Shown here piece after piece: positions 1-5,735 of a stretch of 36,194 nucleotides of DNA. How positions within the stretch are numbered: the first letter of the stretch is position 1; each line of letters opens with the position of its first letter. The stretch is from a virus. The stretch covers positions 1-36,194 of IMG/VR virus record IMGVR_UViG_3300025131_000182; one strand, given 5' to 3'. The translations under genes and the position numbers were made by a program. Below the pieces are notes generated by a model, which worked only from the letters and a program-made list of their open reading frames with translations, had not been told where the DNA came from and searched no databases.

Positions 1-1729
1 CTATATGCAGGGCGCAGACGGTGAAGATATCCCGCCCGTGGTTGTCGGTCATGCCTGAGATGGGTGTCGGTAGCATCTGAAAGTGCAGCGGGTCGAAGGT
101 CGCGCCCCTGATTTTAAGGTGATGCAGCCGCGTCAGCTCGCCGTCAGAATAAGCCGTCAGGTTGGTGTCGAGCTCGTTTGTAAACGCGTACCCGCCGCGG
201 GGGAGCAGGCTCTCCTCGAACACTGCGCCCTTTGTCGGATGGCACAATATAACCACAGCAGGCCCGCCAGGGAGCGCTGTGAGGGCCCGGAAGCTCTTAG
301 CCTGGCCCAGTGCTTCGACGTTCTCATTCTCGTCTGTGCCGCCAAAATAGGGCAGCTTGGAGTCGACGTAGACCGACTTGATGGGCCCGTGCTCCTGGGC
401 CCATTCCTGTATGTAGGGCAGGAAGCTCTCGATCGGCCCGGCGACCGGCATTACCCAGAGCCATTTGCCCAGCTCACCCGGGTCGACCTTATTGAGCTCG
501 CACCAGCCCCGGATACGCCCGCGGACGTCCTCATCATTCTCGCCGGCCAGGAAGAGCACAGTGCCTGGCGGTCCGGTATCGAGCCCAGCCCACGGCATGC
601 CCATAGCCACACAGCATGCCTGGTCGACGGCGATCGCAGTCTTACCGGCGTTACTGTGGCCCGTGAGGGCATATAGGTATCGTTTGCGTATGATGCCGTC
701 GACTATGTACTCGGGCGCCTGCATCTCGGCAGCGAACTCGTCTGCGCGCACGAAGGGAGGAGGTGACGGGGTCTGCGGACTTGCGCCGGAGGGAGCAGCT
801 TGTCCTGGGCTGGTCGAGGGGATCGGACCCGCCAAATGGAACAGACTGCCCAGCCCGACAGCCCCGTCAATGTCGAATGTAGCCCACTTTGCCTGCAGGG
901 CGCCAGCACCAGGGAACTTCTCGCCAAGCTGGGACCAGTTCAGCCAGACGTCGAATGATTCCTCCCAGCATGTCTGGTGCAGCGCCTGGCCTACCTGGAG
1001 CCATGTGCTGTAATCGCAGTCCGGGTCTATCTGCCTGAGCGCCAACTGTACTCGAGTCAGCTCCGCAGGGTCAGCGGGCGTCAGGTTGGTAGGCTGGCGC
1101 CGAGGCGCGTCTAAGACACTTACTCGCGCGTCTGCAGTATCGTCCAATTGGACATTCCAATTTCCAATTGGAATCCGCCACGCCTCTGGTAGCGCCGCCG
1201 TGTTAAGCAGCCCGTCCTCGAGCGGGTCGTCGCTCGCCTCCCACTCATATGTCCTGCCCGAGGCATGGATCGAGGGCGGCATGACCACGTAACCAGTGGC
1301 GCTTATTATGTCGATACCAGCATAACGGTTGCCGTTGATGTACTTGCGGTTCCGCACCGGGTCGCACGAGTACCACAGATGCTGGCCACCGCCGCCGGTC
1401 TCCACGTAAGCGGTAGGCGGGCTCGAGCCGTGGTCCGCGACCCAGTTTTCAAGCGCCTCGATCCCGCCGTTACGCGGGTCGACGTCGAGCACCAGGCCAC
1501 GGGCCCGCGGCCGGCAGCCTATGTTCGCCTTCGGCCAGGTCGTAAACCAGCGTGTAATCAGCTCAGGGTCAGTGGATGCGGCCTTAAAGCCAGAGCTGAT
1601 GAGCGGGTGTTTACCTGGCGACGGACACTTATCGTCCCCGCACGAGCATATGCCGTGCAGGATCGTATGCAGAGGCAGGACTTCGAGCCCTGCCTGTGCA
1701 TAAAGCAGGGCTGCGTCGAGCGGGAGCAT
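1..1729 (-). CDS. Primase-polymerase / RepA-type helicase, N-terminal part
   Basis: Start and first 576 codons of a bifunctional replication protein; the rest lies at 35672-35946 because the contig closes on itself (667 residues in total, and the joined length is an exact multiple of three). The N-terminal third is an archaeo-eukaryotic primase/prim-pol domain: a Cys cluster (C28, C30, C35), PGKHP, the metal-binding D82-V-D84, H117 in TGGGGQHLWY and D140. A PriCT-like linker follows (LRQIDPDCDYSTWLQVGQAL). A RecA-fold ATPase then has a Walker A GHSNAGKT at residues 357-364. Such proteins prime and unwind at phage and plasmid origins. The ATG (1729) overlaps the stop of the upstream nuclease as TAATG, so translation is probably coupled. 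It is the only replication enzyme seen, which suggests use of host polymerases. Domain order and motifs were read directly; the role in initiation is inferred from the family. Confidence 0.9.
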   Translation of the reverse strand, partial: MLPLDAALLYAQAGLEVLPLHTILHGICSCGDDKCPSPGKHPLISSGFKAASTDPELITRWFTTWPKANIGCRPRARGLVLDVDPRNGGIEALENWVADHGSSPPTAYVETGGGGQHLWYSCDPVRNRKYINGNRYAGIDIISATGYVVMPPSIHASGRTYEWEASDDPLEDGLLNTAALPEAWRIPIGNWNVQLDDTADARVSVLDAPRRQPTNLTPADPAELTRVQLALRQIDPDCDYSTWLQVGQALHQTCWEESFDVWLNWSQLGEKFPGAGALQAKWATFDIDGAVGLGSLFHLAGPIPSTSPGQAAPSGASPQTPSPPPFVRADEFAAEMQAPEYIVDGIIRKRYLYALTGHSNAGKTAIAVDQACCVAMGMPWAGLDTGPPGTVLFLAGENDEDVRGRIRGWCELNKVDPGELGKWLWVMPVAGPIESFLPYIQEWAQEHGPIKSVYVDSKLPYFGGTDENENVEALGQAKSFRALTALPGGPAVVILCHPTKGAVFEESLLPRGGYAFTNELDTNLTAYSDGELTRLHHLKIRGATFDPLHFQMLPTPISGMTDNHGRDIFTVCALHI

Positions 1730-2343
1730 TAGTCCAGCGCTTCCCGGTCAGGCGTGTAGCTGTGGTCGAACTTCGCCTTGCGCGCTATGTCGCCGGCTTT
1801 ATCTATCCTGTCACATATAGAGCGGTACGTGTCCATCGCGCAGACAACATAGCCCTTATGCGTAGAGTAGTCGCCCAGCCTGCCCTTGCGGACCTGCTGG
1901 TCTGTTCCTTCCTGGGTCTCCATATCGCACTGCTTGCAGGCCAGCCAGACCTCGTCGTTGTCAGCGGGGGCATGCAGCCCGCCGCGGACTATCCCGCCGC
2001 ACCGCGGGCACATTGCCGCCTCGCCGACGAAGACAGCCATAGGGTCGCCATTGAGCAGCGTTATATTCGACCCGGTAGCGAGCATGGCGTCGACCTTCGG
2101 GTCAGTCGCCACTGTCTTATGCTTCACTTCGTAGAAATACTCACGCCCTCCTGGCGTATGGCACCTGAAGTCAGGGCAGTACAACATACCCTTCCCGTCG
2201 GCATCATAATTCTCAGGCTCGTGCTCCCAGTCATGCAATCCCATCTTGTCAAAGAACACGGCCCAGCGCGCCTCGAGCATCGACCTGAACTCGTAGCCGG
2301 CGTAGTGTGTGCGTGCTGCTTTTCTCGGTTCTTCATTGATCAT
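1729..2343 (-). CDS. PD-(D/E)XK nuclease with zinc ribbon
   Basis: 204 residues. The N-terminal half has the PD-(D/E)XK arrangement: E24 in an FRSMLEARWAVFF helix, D58 in YCPDF, and E72-V-K74 in YFYEVKHK. A four-cysteine zinc ribbon follows (C112-x2-C115 and C136-x2-C139). Related small phage nucleases act on recombination or replication intermediates; the exact substrate cannot be read here. The start is supported by AAGGAG six bases upstream, placed just after the methyltransferase stop. The stop overlaps the primase start by one base. Within the regulator-methyltransferase-nuclease-primase operon a replication or repair role is more likely than restriction, though a modification-linked nuclease cannot be excluded because it follows a DNA methyltransferase directly. 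Confidence 0.75.
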   Translation of the reverse strand: MINEEPRKAARTHYAGYEFRSMLEARWAVFFDKMGLHDWEHEPENYDADGKGMLYCPDFRCHTPGGREYFYEVKHKTVATDPKVDAMLATGSNITLLNGDPMAVFVGEAAMCPRCGGIVRGGLHAPADNDEVWLACKQCDMETQEGTDQQVRKGRLGDYSTHKGYVVCAMDTYRSICDRIDKAGDIARKAKFDHSYTPDREALD

Positions 2344-2344
2344 A

Positions 2345-3247
2345 TCAATCTCCTTCTGTTAATAATTGCCATGCTGCTCTAACCACTGCCGGAACTTGTC
2401 CGTTTCCAGTGGCTTTAAGCCTGTCCACCCGATTGGCCACCCCATCAGCCACTCGACCCAGCCGGGGTTCAGTTGCCCACCAGTCAATTGCTTTACTGCC
2501 GTATCCAACCCCACTCCTCTCGCGCTCGTTTCGCGCATCTCCGCCAGCGCTTCCGGCGACCGCCCGCCTTTCCAGTCCCTCGCTGCCGGAGTCGGCCATT
2601 TCTCCGAGACAGTTAGGGCATCCGTATCGTCCGCAGGCAGCGGCAAACTCATAACCGCATCCGCATCTAATTGTCCCGCTCTCGCCATGTATGCCAGGCT
2701 CCCGGTCCCTGCTCTGGCTTTGCTGCGTTCTCCGCCGCCCGTTGGTGTGGCAATAAATCCAGACCCTGTCGCGCTTATGCGGCGCTCCGCACTCGGCTGC
2801 GGATAACACGCGCCAGTCCGCATCGAACCCGCTTTCGGCCAGGTCCCCGAATATTCGTCGAGCGTATGGGTGAGCCAAGAGACCTGGGACGTTCTCCAGC
2901 AGCGCGTATCGCGGTCGTACTGCGCGAAGTACGGCAAGTGTTTCGGGCCAGAGGTTGCGGCTGTCGTCTTCTCCTGCTCGCTTTCCGGCGACTGAGAATG
3001 GTTGGCAGGGAAATCCGGCAGTGACAACATCAACCATTCCCTTATAGCTTGTGGCGTACCCTTGATCGATGAATGCTCGGATATCGCTGAATATTGGCGC
3101 ATCGTCGAGCAACCCATCTTCGATCCTTTGCGCGATAACTTTTTGACAGTATTCGTTGAACTCGACATAACCTACATGCTCCCATCCCAATAGCCTCTCA
3201 CCGAGCAGACCGCCGCCTGCCCCGGAGAATAAAGATAAAGACCTCAA
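2345..3247 (-). CDS. DNA cytosine-C5 methyltransferase
   Basis: 300 residues with the ordered C5-methyltransferase motifs: motif I FSGAGG (7-12), motif IV GFPCQPFS (78-85, catalytic Cys81), motif VI ENVPG (118-122), motif VIII GAPHKRDRVW (154-163) and motif X TGNGQVP near the end. It transfers a methyl group from S-adenosylmethionine to cytosine, probably to shield phage DNA from host restriction. The stretch between motifs VIII and X, where the target-recognition region lies, is rich in Arg, Gly and Ser and includes a small Cys cluster (CGCGYEF, CPNC). A second long frame covers most of the gene (see 2359-3168). The start overlaps the Cro-like gene's stop, so both are probably translated from one leftward transcript. 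The target sequence is unknown. Confidence 0.92.
   Translation of the reverse strand: MRSLSLFSGAGGGLLGERLLGWEHVGYVEFNEYCQKVIAQRIEDGLLDDAPIFSDIRAFIDQGYATSYKGMVDVVTAGFPCQPFSVAGKRAGEDDSRNLWPETLAVLRAVRPRYALLENVPGLLAHPYARRIFGDLAESGFDADWRVLSAAECGAPHKRDRVWIYCHTNGRRRTQQSQSRDREPGIHGESGTIRCGCGYEFAAACGRYGCPNCLGEMADSGSEGLERRAVAGSAGGDARNERERSGVGYGSKAIDWWATEPRLGRVADGVANRVDRLKATGNGQVPAVVRAAWQLLTEGD
2359..3168 (-). CDS. Open frame overlapping the methyltransferase in the +1 frame
   Basis: A 269-codon open frame lying wholly inside the methyltransferase gene on the same strand, shifted by one base. It is not a random-looking shadow: it reads CWRTSQVSW, EYSGTWPKAGSMRTGACY, SGFIATPTGG, KWPTPAARDWKGG, and ends LNPGWVEWLMGWPIGWTGL then RQWLEQHG. 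I recall these motifs (RTSQ, TWP-SG, WPTPxARDWKG, LNPxWVEWLMGxPxGWT) as recurring in phage proteins annotated as methyltransferase-associated or hypothetical. The same DNA encodes methyltransferase motif X in the main frame, so the database family might itself be a shadow of methyltransferase genes. Start is uncertain: ATG at 3168, or the internal ATG at 3030. No function is assigned. Confidence is for the frame being translated. Confidence 0.5.
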   Translation of the reverse strand: MSSSTNTVKKLSRKGSKMGCSTMRQYSAISEHSSIKGTPQAIREWLMLSLPDFPANHSQSPESEQEKTTAATSGPKHLPYFAQYDRDTRCWRTSQVSWLTHTLDEYSGTWPKAGSMRTGACYPQPSAERRISATGSGFIATPTGGGERSKARAGTGSLAYMARAGQLDADAVMSLPLPADDTDALTVSEKWPTPAARDWKGGRSPEALAEMRETSARGVGLDTAVKQLTGGQLNPGWVEWLMGWPIGWTGLKPLETDKFRQWLEQHGNY

Positions 3248-3477
3248 TCTCCCCTCGAGTATACGTCTGGCGCCAGCGCATGCTTAGGCACGCCAGTCAG
3301 CGCAGATACCCGCGGGCACCAGCGTGGCGGTACGCCGTTACGTATCCACTTGCTGATGCGGTTAGCCATGCGCCTGAGCTCCTGCTTTGACGCGCGTGGT
3401 GGTGATAAATGAATAGCGAGCGCCGCTGGCCCGCCTGCTCTAGTGATGGCCTCCCAGGCCGCTCGTTGTATTTTCAT
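3244..3477 (-). CDS. Cro/YdaS-like transcriptional regulator
   Basis: 77 residues with a helix-turn-helix of the YdaS/Cro type: an alanine-rich first helix (AITRAGGPAALAIHL), a recognition region ending NRISKWIRNGVPPRWCPRVS, and a C-terminal tail ALTGVPKHALAPDVY typical of this family. It is the first gene of the leftward early operon and faces the rightward promoter across about 140 bases, the usual place for a lytic-switch regulator. A purine-rich ribosome site (AGAGAGGGCT) precedes the ATG. Its 3' end overlaps the methyltransferase start (ATGA). No CI-type partner or integrase is seen, so it more likely tunes early transcription than maintains lysogeny. Its first 27 codons are duplicated at 3829-3933. 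Confidence 0.78.
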   Translation of the reverse strand: MKIQRAAWEAITRAGGPAALAIHLSPPRASKQELRRMANRISKWIRNGVPPRWCPRVSALTGVPKHALAPDVYSRGD

Positions 3478-3485
3478 AGCCCTCT

Positions 3486-3514
3486 CTTATATACTGCTGG
3501 GGAGATGAAAGCAA
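3486..3514 (-). promoter_or_regulatory. Leftward early promoter
   Basis: On the minus strand TTGCTT, 17 bases, then TATAAG, about 8 bases upstream of the regulator's AGAGAGG site. The -10 matches the sigma70 consensus at 5 of 6 bases, the -35 at 3 of 6. It would transcribe the regulator, methyltransferase, nuclease and primase. An almost identical copy is at 3942-3970. Confidence 0.5.
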
Positions 3515-3550
3515 ATCAGCATTTAATTTCATTTATTTTAGCTAAGGAGC

Positions 3551-3579
3551 TTGCATTTGCTGAAAAAGTTTCCTATACT
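3551..3579 (+). promoter_or_regulatory. Rightward early promoter, copy 1
   Basis: TTGCAT, 17 bases, TATACT, followed at once by a GTATAC palindrome and the leader CCCTGAAACAACC. The -10 is strong and spacing ideal, the -35 moderate. The same arrangement recurs at 4016-4044 and the -10/leader part at 5692-5735, which supports a real phage promoter family. GTATAC just downstream of the -10 could be an operator. Confidence 0.6.
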
Positions 3580-3613
3580 ATGTGTATACCCTGAAACAAC
3601 CGAGATACATAAC

Positions 3614-3828: not shown

Positions 3829-3933
3829 TTATTGATTTACCTGGAGAGCACTAGGCGGTGATAAATGAATAGCGAGCGCCGCCGGCCCGCCTGCTTTGAT
3901 GATGGCCTCCCGGGCCGCTCGTTGTATTTTCAT
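3829..3933 (-). pseudogene. Truncated duplicate of the Cro-like regulator
   Basis: ATG at 3933 opens a 34-codon frame whose first 27 residues match the regulator at 3477 with four changes (W8R, T12I, R13K region) and then run into unrelated sequence and a TAA. The helix-turn-helix recognition part is missing, so it cannot be a working regulator. It is the by-product of duplicating the control region. Its own leftward promoter copy (3942-3970) and ribosome site are intact, so a short peptide could still be made, and transcription from it would run into the 3614-3796 gene on the opposite strand. Confidence 0.75.
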
Positions 3934-3941
3934 AGTCCTCT

Positions 3942-3970
3942 CTTATATACTGCTGGGGAGATGAAAGCAA
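3942..3970 (-). promoter_or_regulatory. Duplicate of the leftward early promoter
   Basis: Same elements as 3486-3514 (TTGCTT, 17 bases, TATAAG on the minus strand), now driving only the truncated regulator copy. If active it would send antisense RNA across the 3614-3796 gene. Confidence 0.4.
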
Positions 3971-4015
3971 ATCAGCATATAAATAGGACGGCCTTGGACG
4001 TTAATGGAAAAGAGC

Positions 4016-4044
4016 TTGCATTTGCTGAAAAAGTTTCATATACT
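4016..4044 (+). promoter_or_regulatory. Rightward early promoter, copy 2
   Basis: TTGCAT, 17 bases, TATACT, then GGGTATACACTGAAACAACC. It serves the Cys-rich gene at 4083 and those beyond. Confidence 0.6.
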
Positions 4045-4082
4045 ATGGGTATACACTGAAACAACCGGAAAGAGAAAACACT

Positions 4083-5497: not shown

Positions 5498-5683
5498 ATG
5501 GCACACACACCGACACCTTGGCTCATACGTTGCGCTAACCCGCAGTACAACAAATCATGTTCGCTGCCGCCCGATACAAAAGAAGATGATCTCCAGTCAG
5601 AGACGTGGCGCCGCACGAACGACGCTGCGTGGGACATGGTGACGAATTATACACTGAACAACCTGGAGAATAAGCATGAATAA
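5498..5683 (+). CDS. HTPxPW-type early protein, probably truncated
   Basis: 61 residues. The start MAHTPTPWLI resembles the HTPGPW opening of a common small phage protein family that normally runs longer and ends in an ARLIAAAPELL-type helix, absent here. The last 12 codons (NYTLNNLENKHE) are translated from the leader repeat at 5648-5682, that is, from non-coding sequence of the next gene's control module. The simplest reading is that insertion or duplication of this module cut the gene short. A ribosome site (CCTGGAG) precedes the ATG. Whether the short product is functional is unknown. Confidence 0.5.
   Translation: MAHTPTPWLIRCANPQYNKSCSLPPDTKEDDLQSETWRRTNDAAWDMVTNYTLNNLENKHE
5648..5682 (+). 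repeat. 35-base leader repeat, copy 1
   Basis: Perfect 35-base repeat of 5701-5735, carrying TATACACTGAACAACC, the CTGGAG ribosome site and an ATG. The ATG here opens only a 7-codon frame (MNNYLVL). It also supplies the 3' end of the 5498-5683 gene. Confidence 0.9.
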
Positions 5684-5691
5684 TTATCTTG

Positions 5692-5735
5692 TATTATAGG
5701 TATACACTGAACAACCTGGAGAATAAGCATGAATA
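5692..5735 (+). promoter_or_regulatory. Third promoter-like element with leader repeat copy 2
   Basis: TATTAT followed by AGGTATACACTGAACAACC, the same -10/GTATAC/leader order as at 3574 and 4039. No good -35 is seen at 17 bases. The 35-base repeat 5701-5735 ends in the start codon region of the 5729 gene. Confidence 0.4.

Follow-up and report, generated by a model that had tools for sequence, protein, structure and literature searches.

A phage C5-cytosine methyltransferase very likely encoded as two subunits nested in different frames of one DNA strand

Introduction

Motifs IX and X form the C-terminal part of C5 methyltransferases (PMC3404938), and in a few described enzymes the motif series is divided between two polypeptides. 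In M.AquI (CYCGRG) the alpha polypeptide carries motifs I-VIII, with the rest of the variable region, motif IX and motif X in the second polypeptide (PMC3404938). In M.EcoHK31I (YGGCCR) the larger subunit carries motifs I-VIII and X, and the smaller polypeptide motif IX (PMC3404938); the small open reading frame is reported to lie inside the large one in another frame (Lee, Kam and Shaw 1995, PMID 7870574). A nested +1 arrangement also occurs in Paenibacillus phage Redbud, where gp51, inside gp50, is annotated 'g50 internal gene'. However, that annotation gives neither a function nor an explanation, related phages list two 'DNA-cytosine methyltransferases', and an internal gene is noted only in Redbud-type phage annotations. 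No explanation of this phage double coding was found in the literature searched. More generally, the existence of long overlapping genes on the same strand is in dispute for prokaryotes, and few cases are fully established (PMC9927249).

Here we analyse such a pair on the minus strand of a phage record (36,194 bases, the whole of which we call the window). Like M.EcoHK31I, the window has motifs I-VIII and X in one protein (alpha) and motif IX in a second (beta), with the beta gene wholly inside alpha in another frame. Unlike M.EcoHK31I, whose predicted recognition domain lies in the larger subunit (PMC3404938), the stretch between motifs VIII and IX evolves here as beta; beta reaches over nearly all of alpha; and relatives show a twin start in most cases, a motif X that changes frames, and a spread over phages and many phyla. 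We regard it as very likely that the window is of the M.EcoHK31I kind and that this kind is distributed much more widely than the few enzymes described so far, a judgement made by architecture, with no sequence comparison to M.EcoHK31I and with the need for both polypeptides inferred. M.AquI is resembled by a minority of relatives, here termed type-2 loci (L019, L041, L119, L129, L230 and L244), in which motifs IX and X both lie in the second polypeptide, whereas the window keeps motif X in alpha, and its beta extends over the entire catalytic part as well. Of the two window proteins, alpha matches PHROG family 363 and beta family 1008; each family is labelled 'DNA methyltransferase', but the library is silent on the two being two frames of one DNA.

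Results

Alpha is a catalytic half without a small domain

The features of the alpha frame are as follows, read from the sequence unless another basis is given.

2345..3247, minus strand: alpha, large subunit of a C5-cytosine methyltransferase (300 aa); motifs I-VIII and X present, motif IX absent
3249..3256, minus strand: purine-rich GAGGGGAG directly 5' of the alpha TTG, with a spacing of only 1 nt
3209..3229, minus strand: motif I, FSGAGGG
2993..3016, minus strand: motif IV, GFPCQPFS, with catalytic Cys81 (invariant in alignment A1); beta reads FPANHS there
2888..2899, minus strand: motif VI, LENV, within the bases of beta CWRTSQ
2756..2785, minus strand: motif VIII, APHKRDRVWI; beta TGSGFIATP starts here
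2390..2413, minus strand: motif X core, ATGNGQVP, overlapped by the beta tail segment LKPLETDKFRQWL

Alpha thus meets the criteria for a C5-cytosine methyltransferase, namely motif I, PCQ (IV), ENV (VI) and motif VIII. It matches phrog_363 (1.1e-64) and Pfam PF00145 (DNA_methylase; E=5.5e-36), the latter over aa 2-174 only. Its TTG start overlaps the stop of the upstream gene (TTGA) and is less certain because the purine-rich element is so close to it. In the AlphaFold model, aa 1-170 mostly have pLDDT above 85-90 (130 residues reach pLDDT >=90), residues 281-300 form an ordered motif X helix (76-89), and residues 171-280, where the recognition domain would be expected, are a disordered stretch at about 38-56. 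A Foldseek search against the PDB matched the model to the catalytic part of M.HhaI (E 4.1e-13, 173 columns), and alpha is accordingly predicted by the model to fold as a C5 methyltransferase catalytic domain. A small domain with the target recognition domain and motif IX is absent from alpha: aa 171-280 are of low confidence and the Pfam match stops at 174.

The otherwise variable spacer between motifs VIII and X also holds a zinc-ribbon-like stretch (CGCGYEF...CGRYGCPNC, 2609-2665, minus strand) that is not present in the other alphas of alignment A1. The CxC...CPxC pattern (alpha aa 195-213 of this phage) resembles a real zinc ribbon, so the alpha spacer is possibly not idle, and both frames could conceivably carry meaning at this place.

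Beta lies wholly within alpha

The features of the shifted frame are given below.

2359..3168, minus strand: beta, 269 aa, read in the +1 frame and contained entirely in alpha; carries motif IX and the recognition part (basis: phrog_1008, the open frame, codon-position rates and an in-frame run into motif X in relatives)
2884-2901, minus strand: CWRTSQ (sequence)
2812-2844, minus strand: TWPKAGSMRTG (sequence)
2563..2601, minus strand: KWPTPAARDWKGG box, inside the VIII-IX stretch dominated by beta
2422..2481, minus strand: motif IX, GGQLNPGWVEWLMGWPIGWT; alpha reads EPRLGRVADGVANRVD from the same bases (residue conservation against synonymous shuffling)

The frame is 810 bases long, opening with an ATG at 3168 and closing with a TAA at 2359. 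The preliminary description, made from the sequence alone, had claimed a +1 frame of this length at 2359-3168 inside a methyltransferase gene, and both the coordinates, which are exact, and its quoted series of motifs, all of which are present, held. It failed in one detail, having placed alpha motif X on the same bases as the beta LNP...GWT block; these encode alpha EPRLGRVADGVANRVD just before motif X, and it is the next beta segment that the motif X core overlaps. It also lacked the identity of beta as motif IX and the recognition part of the same enzyme.

Beta matches phrog_1008 (8.3e-28) but has no Pfam match and no PDB sequence match. A tblastn search with it found relatives in 121 phage records, and over 300 stretches related to it occur among 84,980 prokaryote species genomes. 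Modelled alone by AlphaFold, beta gave a poor prediction (mean pLDDT 61, pTM 0.28), in which the motif IX block and the C-terminus are helical and YDRDTRCWRTSQ and TWPKAGSMRTG each form a hairpin, and a fold search with this model matched nothing. A poor lone model would fit a half-domain that folds on its partner, which is a possible inference only. Because the model is poor and there is no solved relative by sequence or by fold, the reading of beta as the 'small domain' rests on motif IX and the type-2 loci.

Both frames are under selection as proteins

The null model was synonymous codon shuffling within each gene, which leaves the protein sequence and codon usage of alpha unchanged. The main-query set (69 dereplicated loci) was picked by the alpha frame alone, thereby avoiding selection on the frame under test; a further, third set held one genome per prokaryote species. 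Across the 69 loci the +1 frame contains 11 stops against 323.4 expected, and it is fully open in 63 of them against 0.6 expected, the other 6 having stops. By contrast, the +2 control frame has 954 stops against 843 expected. The prokaryote genome set gave 7 stops in the +1 frame where 226 were expected. For the alpha gene of the window itself there is no stop in the overlap, against a mean of 6.2 in shuffles, and none of 400 shuffles was open.

Residue conservation points the same way. In 300 of 300 pairs (25-55% alpha identity) the +1 frame is conserved above the shuffling null, and in the motif IX block of beta, residues such as Trp, Gly and Pro are 0.85-0.99 conserved against 0.27-0.60 under synonymous shuffling. 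The upstream part of beta (alpha 28-166) is also conserved above the null, at 104 of 123 sites. The +2 frame shows a smaller similarity excess (0.32 vs -0.14), and a modest excess there is expected because the bases are doubly constrained.

Substitution rates by codon position (91 close pairs; positions 1/2/3 in alpha phase) separate the two proteins along the gene. The core from motif I to motif VIII is alpha-like, with the third position fastest (0.115/0.062/0.240). In the VIII-IX spacer (0.439/0.259/0.292) the fastest position is the first of alpha, which is the third of beta, and identity there is 63% for beta against 48% for alpha. Over the IX/X overlap both frames are bound (0.150/0.081/0.148). 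The VIII-IX DNA therefore evolves as beta and not as alpha, a pattern characteristic of a +1 frame that codes for protein. Beta is a genuine gene, and selection acts on both frames as proteins.

The double coding entertained in the preliminary description, as opposed to a well kept shadow, was thus right. Neither of the two refuting conditions it named was fulfilled: stops are nearly lacking from the +1 frame of homologues, and synonymous variation in the main frame is strongly constrained. Its remark that the VIII-X region is more protein-like in the shifted frame also held, and the alpha spacer looked unlike protein to its author because beta dominates VIII-IX.

As a separate observation, the IX/X double-coding stretch of the window (2390-2480) has 78-87% DNA identity to phages of Acinetobacter, Salmonella and Lacticaseibacillus (H111-H118), whose genes outside this stretch are too diverged from the window to align.

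Type-2 loci join motif IX to motif X in the beta frame

Ten phages of differing hosts, and then 80 viral contigs found with beta, gave the same two-frame picture, with the second open frame always in phase +1, 200-420 codons long and at a G+C from 0.35 to 0.69. HMMs of the catalytic part, of motifs IX and X and of the shifted protein were used to call the architecture at 252 loci. Nearly all have motif IX in the +1 frame and motif X in frame 0 (73/81 main-query loci; 75/79 classified genome loci). The family is spread over phages and many phyla, archaea included. No beta without an overlapping alpha was seen among the loci examined, bar one fragment at a contig end (L238).

In the type-2 loci alpha ends after motif VIII, and the +1 open reading frame runs through (G)GxLNPDWVEWLMGWPIGW and then in frame into NRVNRLKAIGNGQVP, which is motif X; the block LNPxWVEWLMG likewise continues in frame to RVNRLKAIGNGQVP, motif X. 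A Streptomyces plasmid (L259) has this layout too, and its annotation covers alpha only. Since the +1 frame joins IX to X in these loci, motif IX is the LNP block, and the recognition half is the +1 protein; and since alpha there stops after VIII while the +1 frame runs through IX-X, the half of the enzyme that alpha lacks comes from the +1 frame. In the alpha tree, type-2 loci occur at scattered positions, L019 and L041 near the window, and supported branches force at least 4 changes. Motif X has probably switched frame several times, or else one frame lost it and the other acquired it.

Some individual loci deserve mention. An apparent in-frame alpha-beta fusion (L092) was rejected, a one-base indel explaining it better. 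An E. coli prophage copy (strain PCP07014; L265 1500-2261) has a twin start after GGAGGAG and a stop in both frames at about the same place; RefSeq lists its alpha as a pseudogene and leaves beta unannotated. In two phages (L002 1582-2082; L006 392-652) the annotation calls the beta frame and omits alpha, and the beta of L002 is annotated 'DNA-cytosine methyltransferase'.

Beta has its own start

At 141 of 213 loci we found a twin start, NTGAATGAG or a close variant, in which the beta ATG follows exactly 4 nt after the alpha start: an alpha NTG, an in-frame TGA that closes the +1 frame, and then the beta ATG. The Asn2 codon is AAT in 147 cases and AAC in 8, against 455 and 507 for other Asn codons before G. 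The subgroup of the window instead has a common beta ATG at +79/82 in alpha (ATGTCGA), often with GGAG(G) about 10 bases upstream. The corresponding element in the window is:

3179..3183, minus strand: GGGAG, candidate Shine-Dalgarno of beta, 10 nt before the beta ATG (3168)

A GGAG(G)-type element is similarly placed in many window-like relatives (L094, L096, L016, L097 and others). The ATG within alpha RIEDG (window 3117) was rejected as a general beta start, the Asp codon GAT being barely commoner there than elsewhere. The preliminary description had left internal initiation or a frameshift undecided; because beta has its own start, the former is favoured, and initiation at that start is probably much the better account of the two.

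Neighbouring DNA

The next gene (1729-2343, minus strand) begins just past the alpha stop, with a Shine-Dalgarno, AGAAGGAG, within the last codons of alpha. A weak DUF790 match and the pattern LEARWAVFF...PDF...EVK hint at a possible PD-(D/E)XK nuclease. As a restriction partner this candidate was rejected, no relative of it being found beside related loci. A direct repeat of about 200 bases lies at about 3403-3600 and 3855-4075 (plus strand), ending in TATACTATG.GTATAC.CTGAAACAACC, and a similar element lies near 5650-5720. These repeats are perhaps promoter or operator units of early genes.

Discussion

The best explanation is very likely a two-subunit C5-cytosine methyltransferase with its genes nested in different frames of one strand, although we have no expression, binding or methylation data. 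Alpha (2345-3247), with motifs I-VIII and X, would provide the catalytic domain, which binds AdoMet and transfers the methyl group at Cys81. Beta (2359-3168), starting separately at the internal ATG, would give target recognition and motif IX, that is, the small domain missing from alpha. The two would associate into one enzyme that methylates cytosine at a specific site in phage (and host) DNA, most likely shielding the DNA from host restriction. Phage methyltransferases usually serve this purpose. We only infer that the two proteins are produced, interact and are active as a pair, and the same holds for the target site and the anti-restriction role.

A programmed frameshift, by which alpha would pass into the +1 frame after motif VIII to give one longer chain with no separately started beta, has in its favour that a single +1 shift between VIII and the alpha stop would yield a complete I-X monomer in type-2 loci. 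However, beta is conserved far upstream of such a shift point, its start sits right behind an in-frame stop in most loci, and motif X would be forfeited if such a shift took place in the window or in other type-1 loci. We hold this to be very unlikely, with the caveat that no systematic search for slippery sites was made.

Also very unlikely is that beta, though a real protein, works independently of the enzyme, for instance in anti-restriction or regulation, and is not a subunit of it. The lack of a solved relative or Pfam match for lone beta would allow this, but in several relatives motifs IX and X follow each other in one frame while alpha has neither, alpha lacks motif IX and a recognition domain, and beta is not found without alpha (the L238 fragment aside).

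A shadow, in which the alpha protein and codon usage force the openness and conservation of the +1 frame, can point to common motifs that do arise from conserved alpha residues (e.g. WRTSQ under LLENVPG) and to the modest +2 excess, but it is all but excluded by the shuffles, which leave 0.6 of 69 loci open where 63 are, and by a spacer that evolves in the phase of beta.

The two-subunit reading bears on a family of which the window itself is an ordinary phage member. A bolder version, which we think likely, takes it as a large and ancient family of dual-coded methyltransferases that spans phages and numerous phyla of bacteria and archaea. In it, the entire recognition subunit would be written in the other frame of the catalytic gene, the two starts would often share one 9-base element, and motif X would have switched its coding frame several times. 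The overlap is about 250 codons long and has relatives in the hundreds, the function of the hidden frame is clear, the type-2 loci serve as a natural control, and the pair is among the best-supported long overlapping gene pairs known to us. Gene callers retain only one of the frames and omit or mislabel the second, beta usually going unannotated, so that many 'DNA methyltransferase' entries of phages and prophages are half enzymes, which would mislead cloning and the prediction of specificity. The family is also a test bed for how two mutually fitting proteins evolve in the same DNA, and for how ribosomes choose between starts 4 nt apart.
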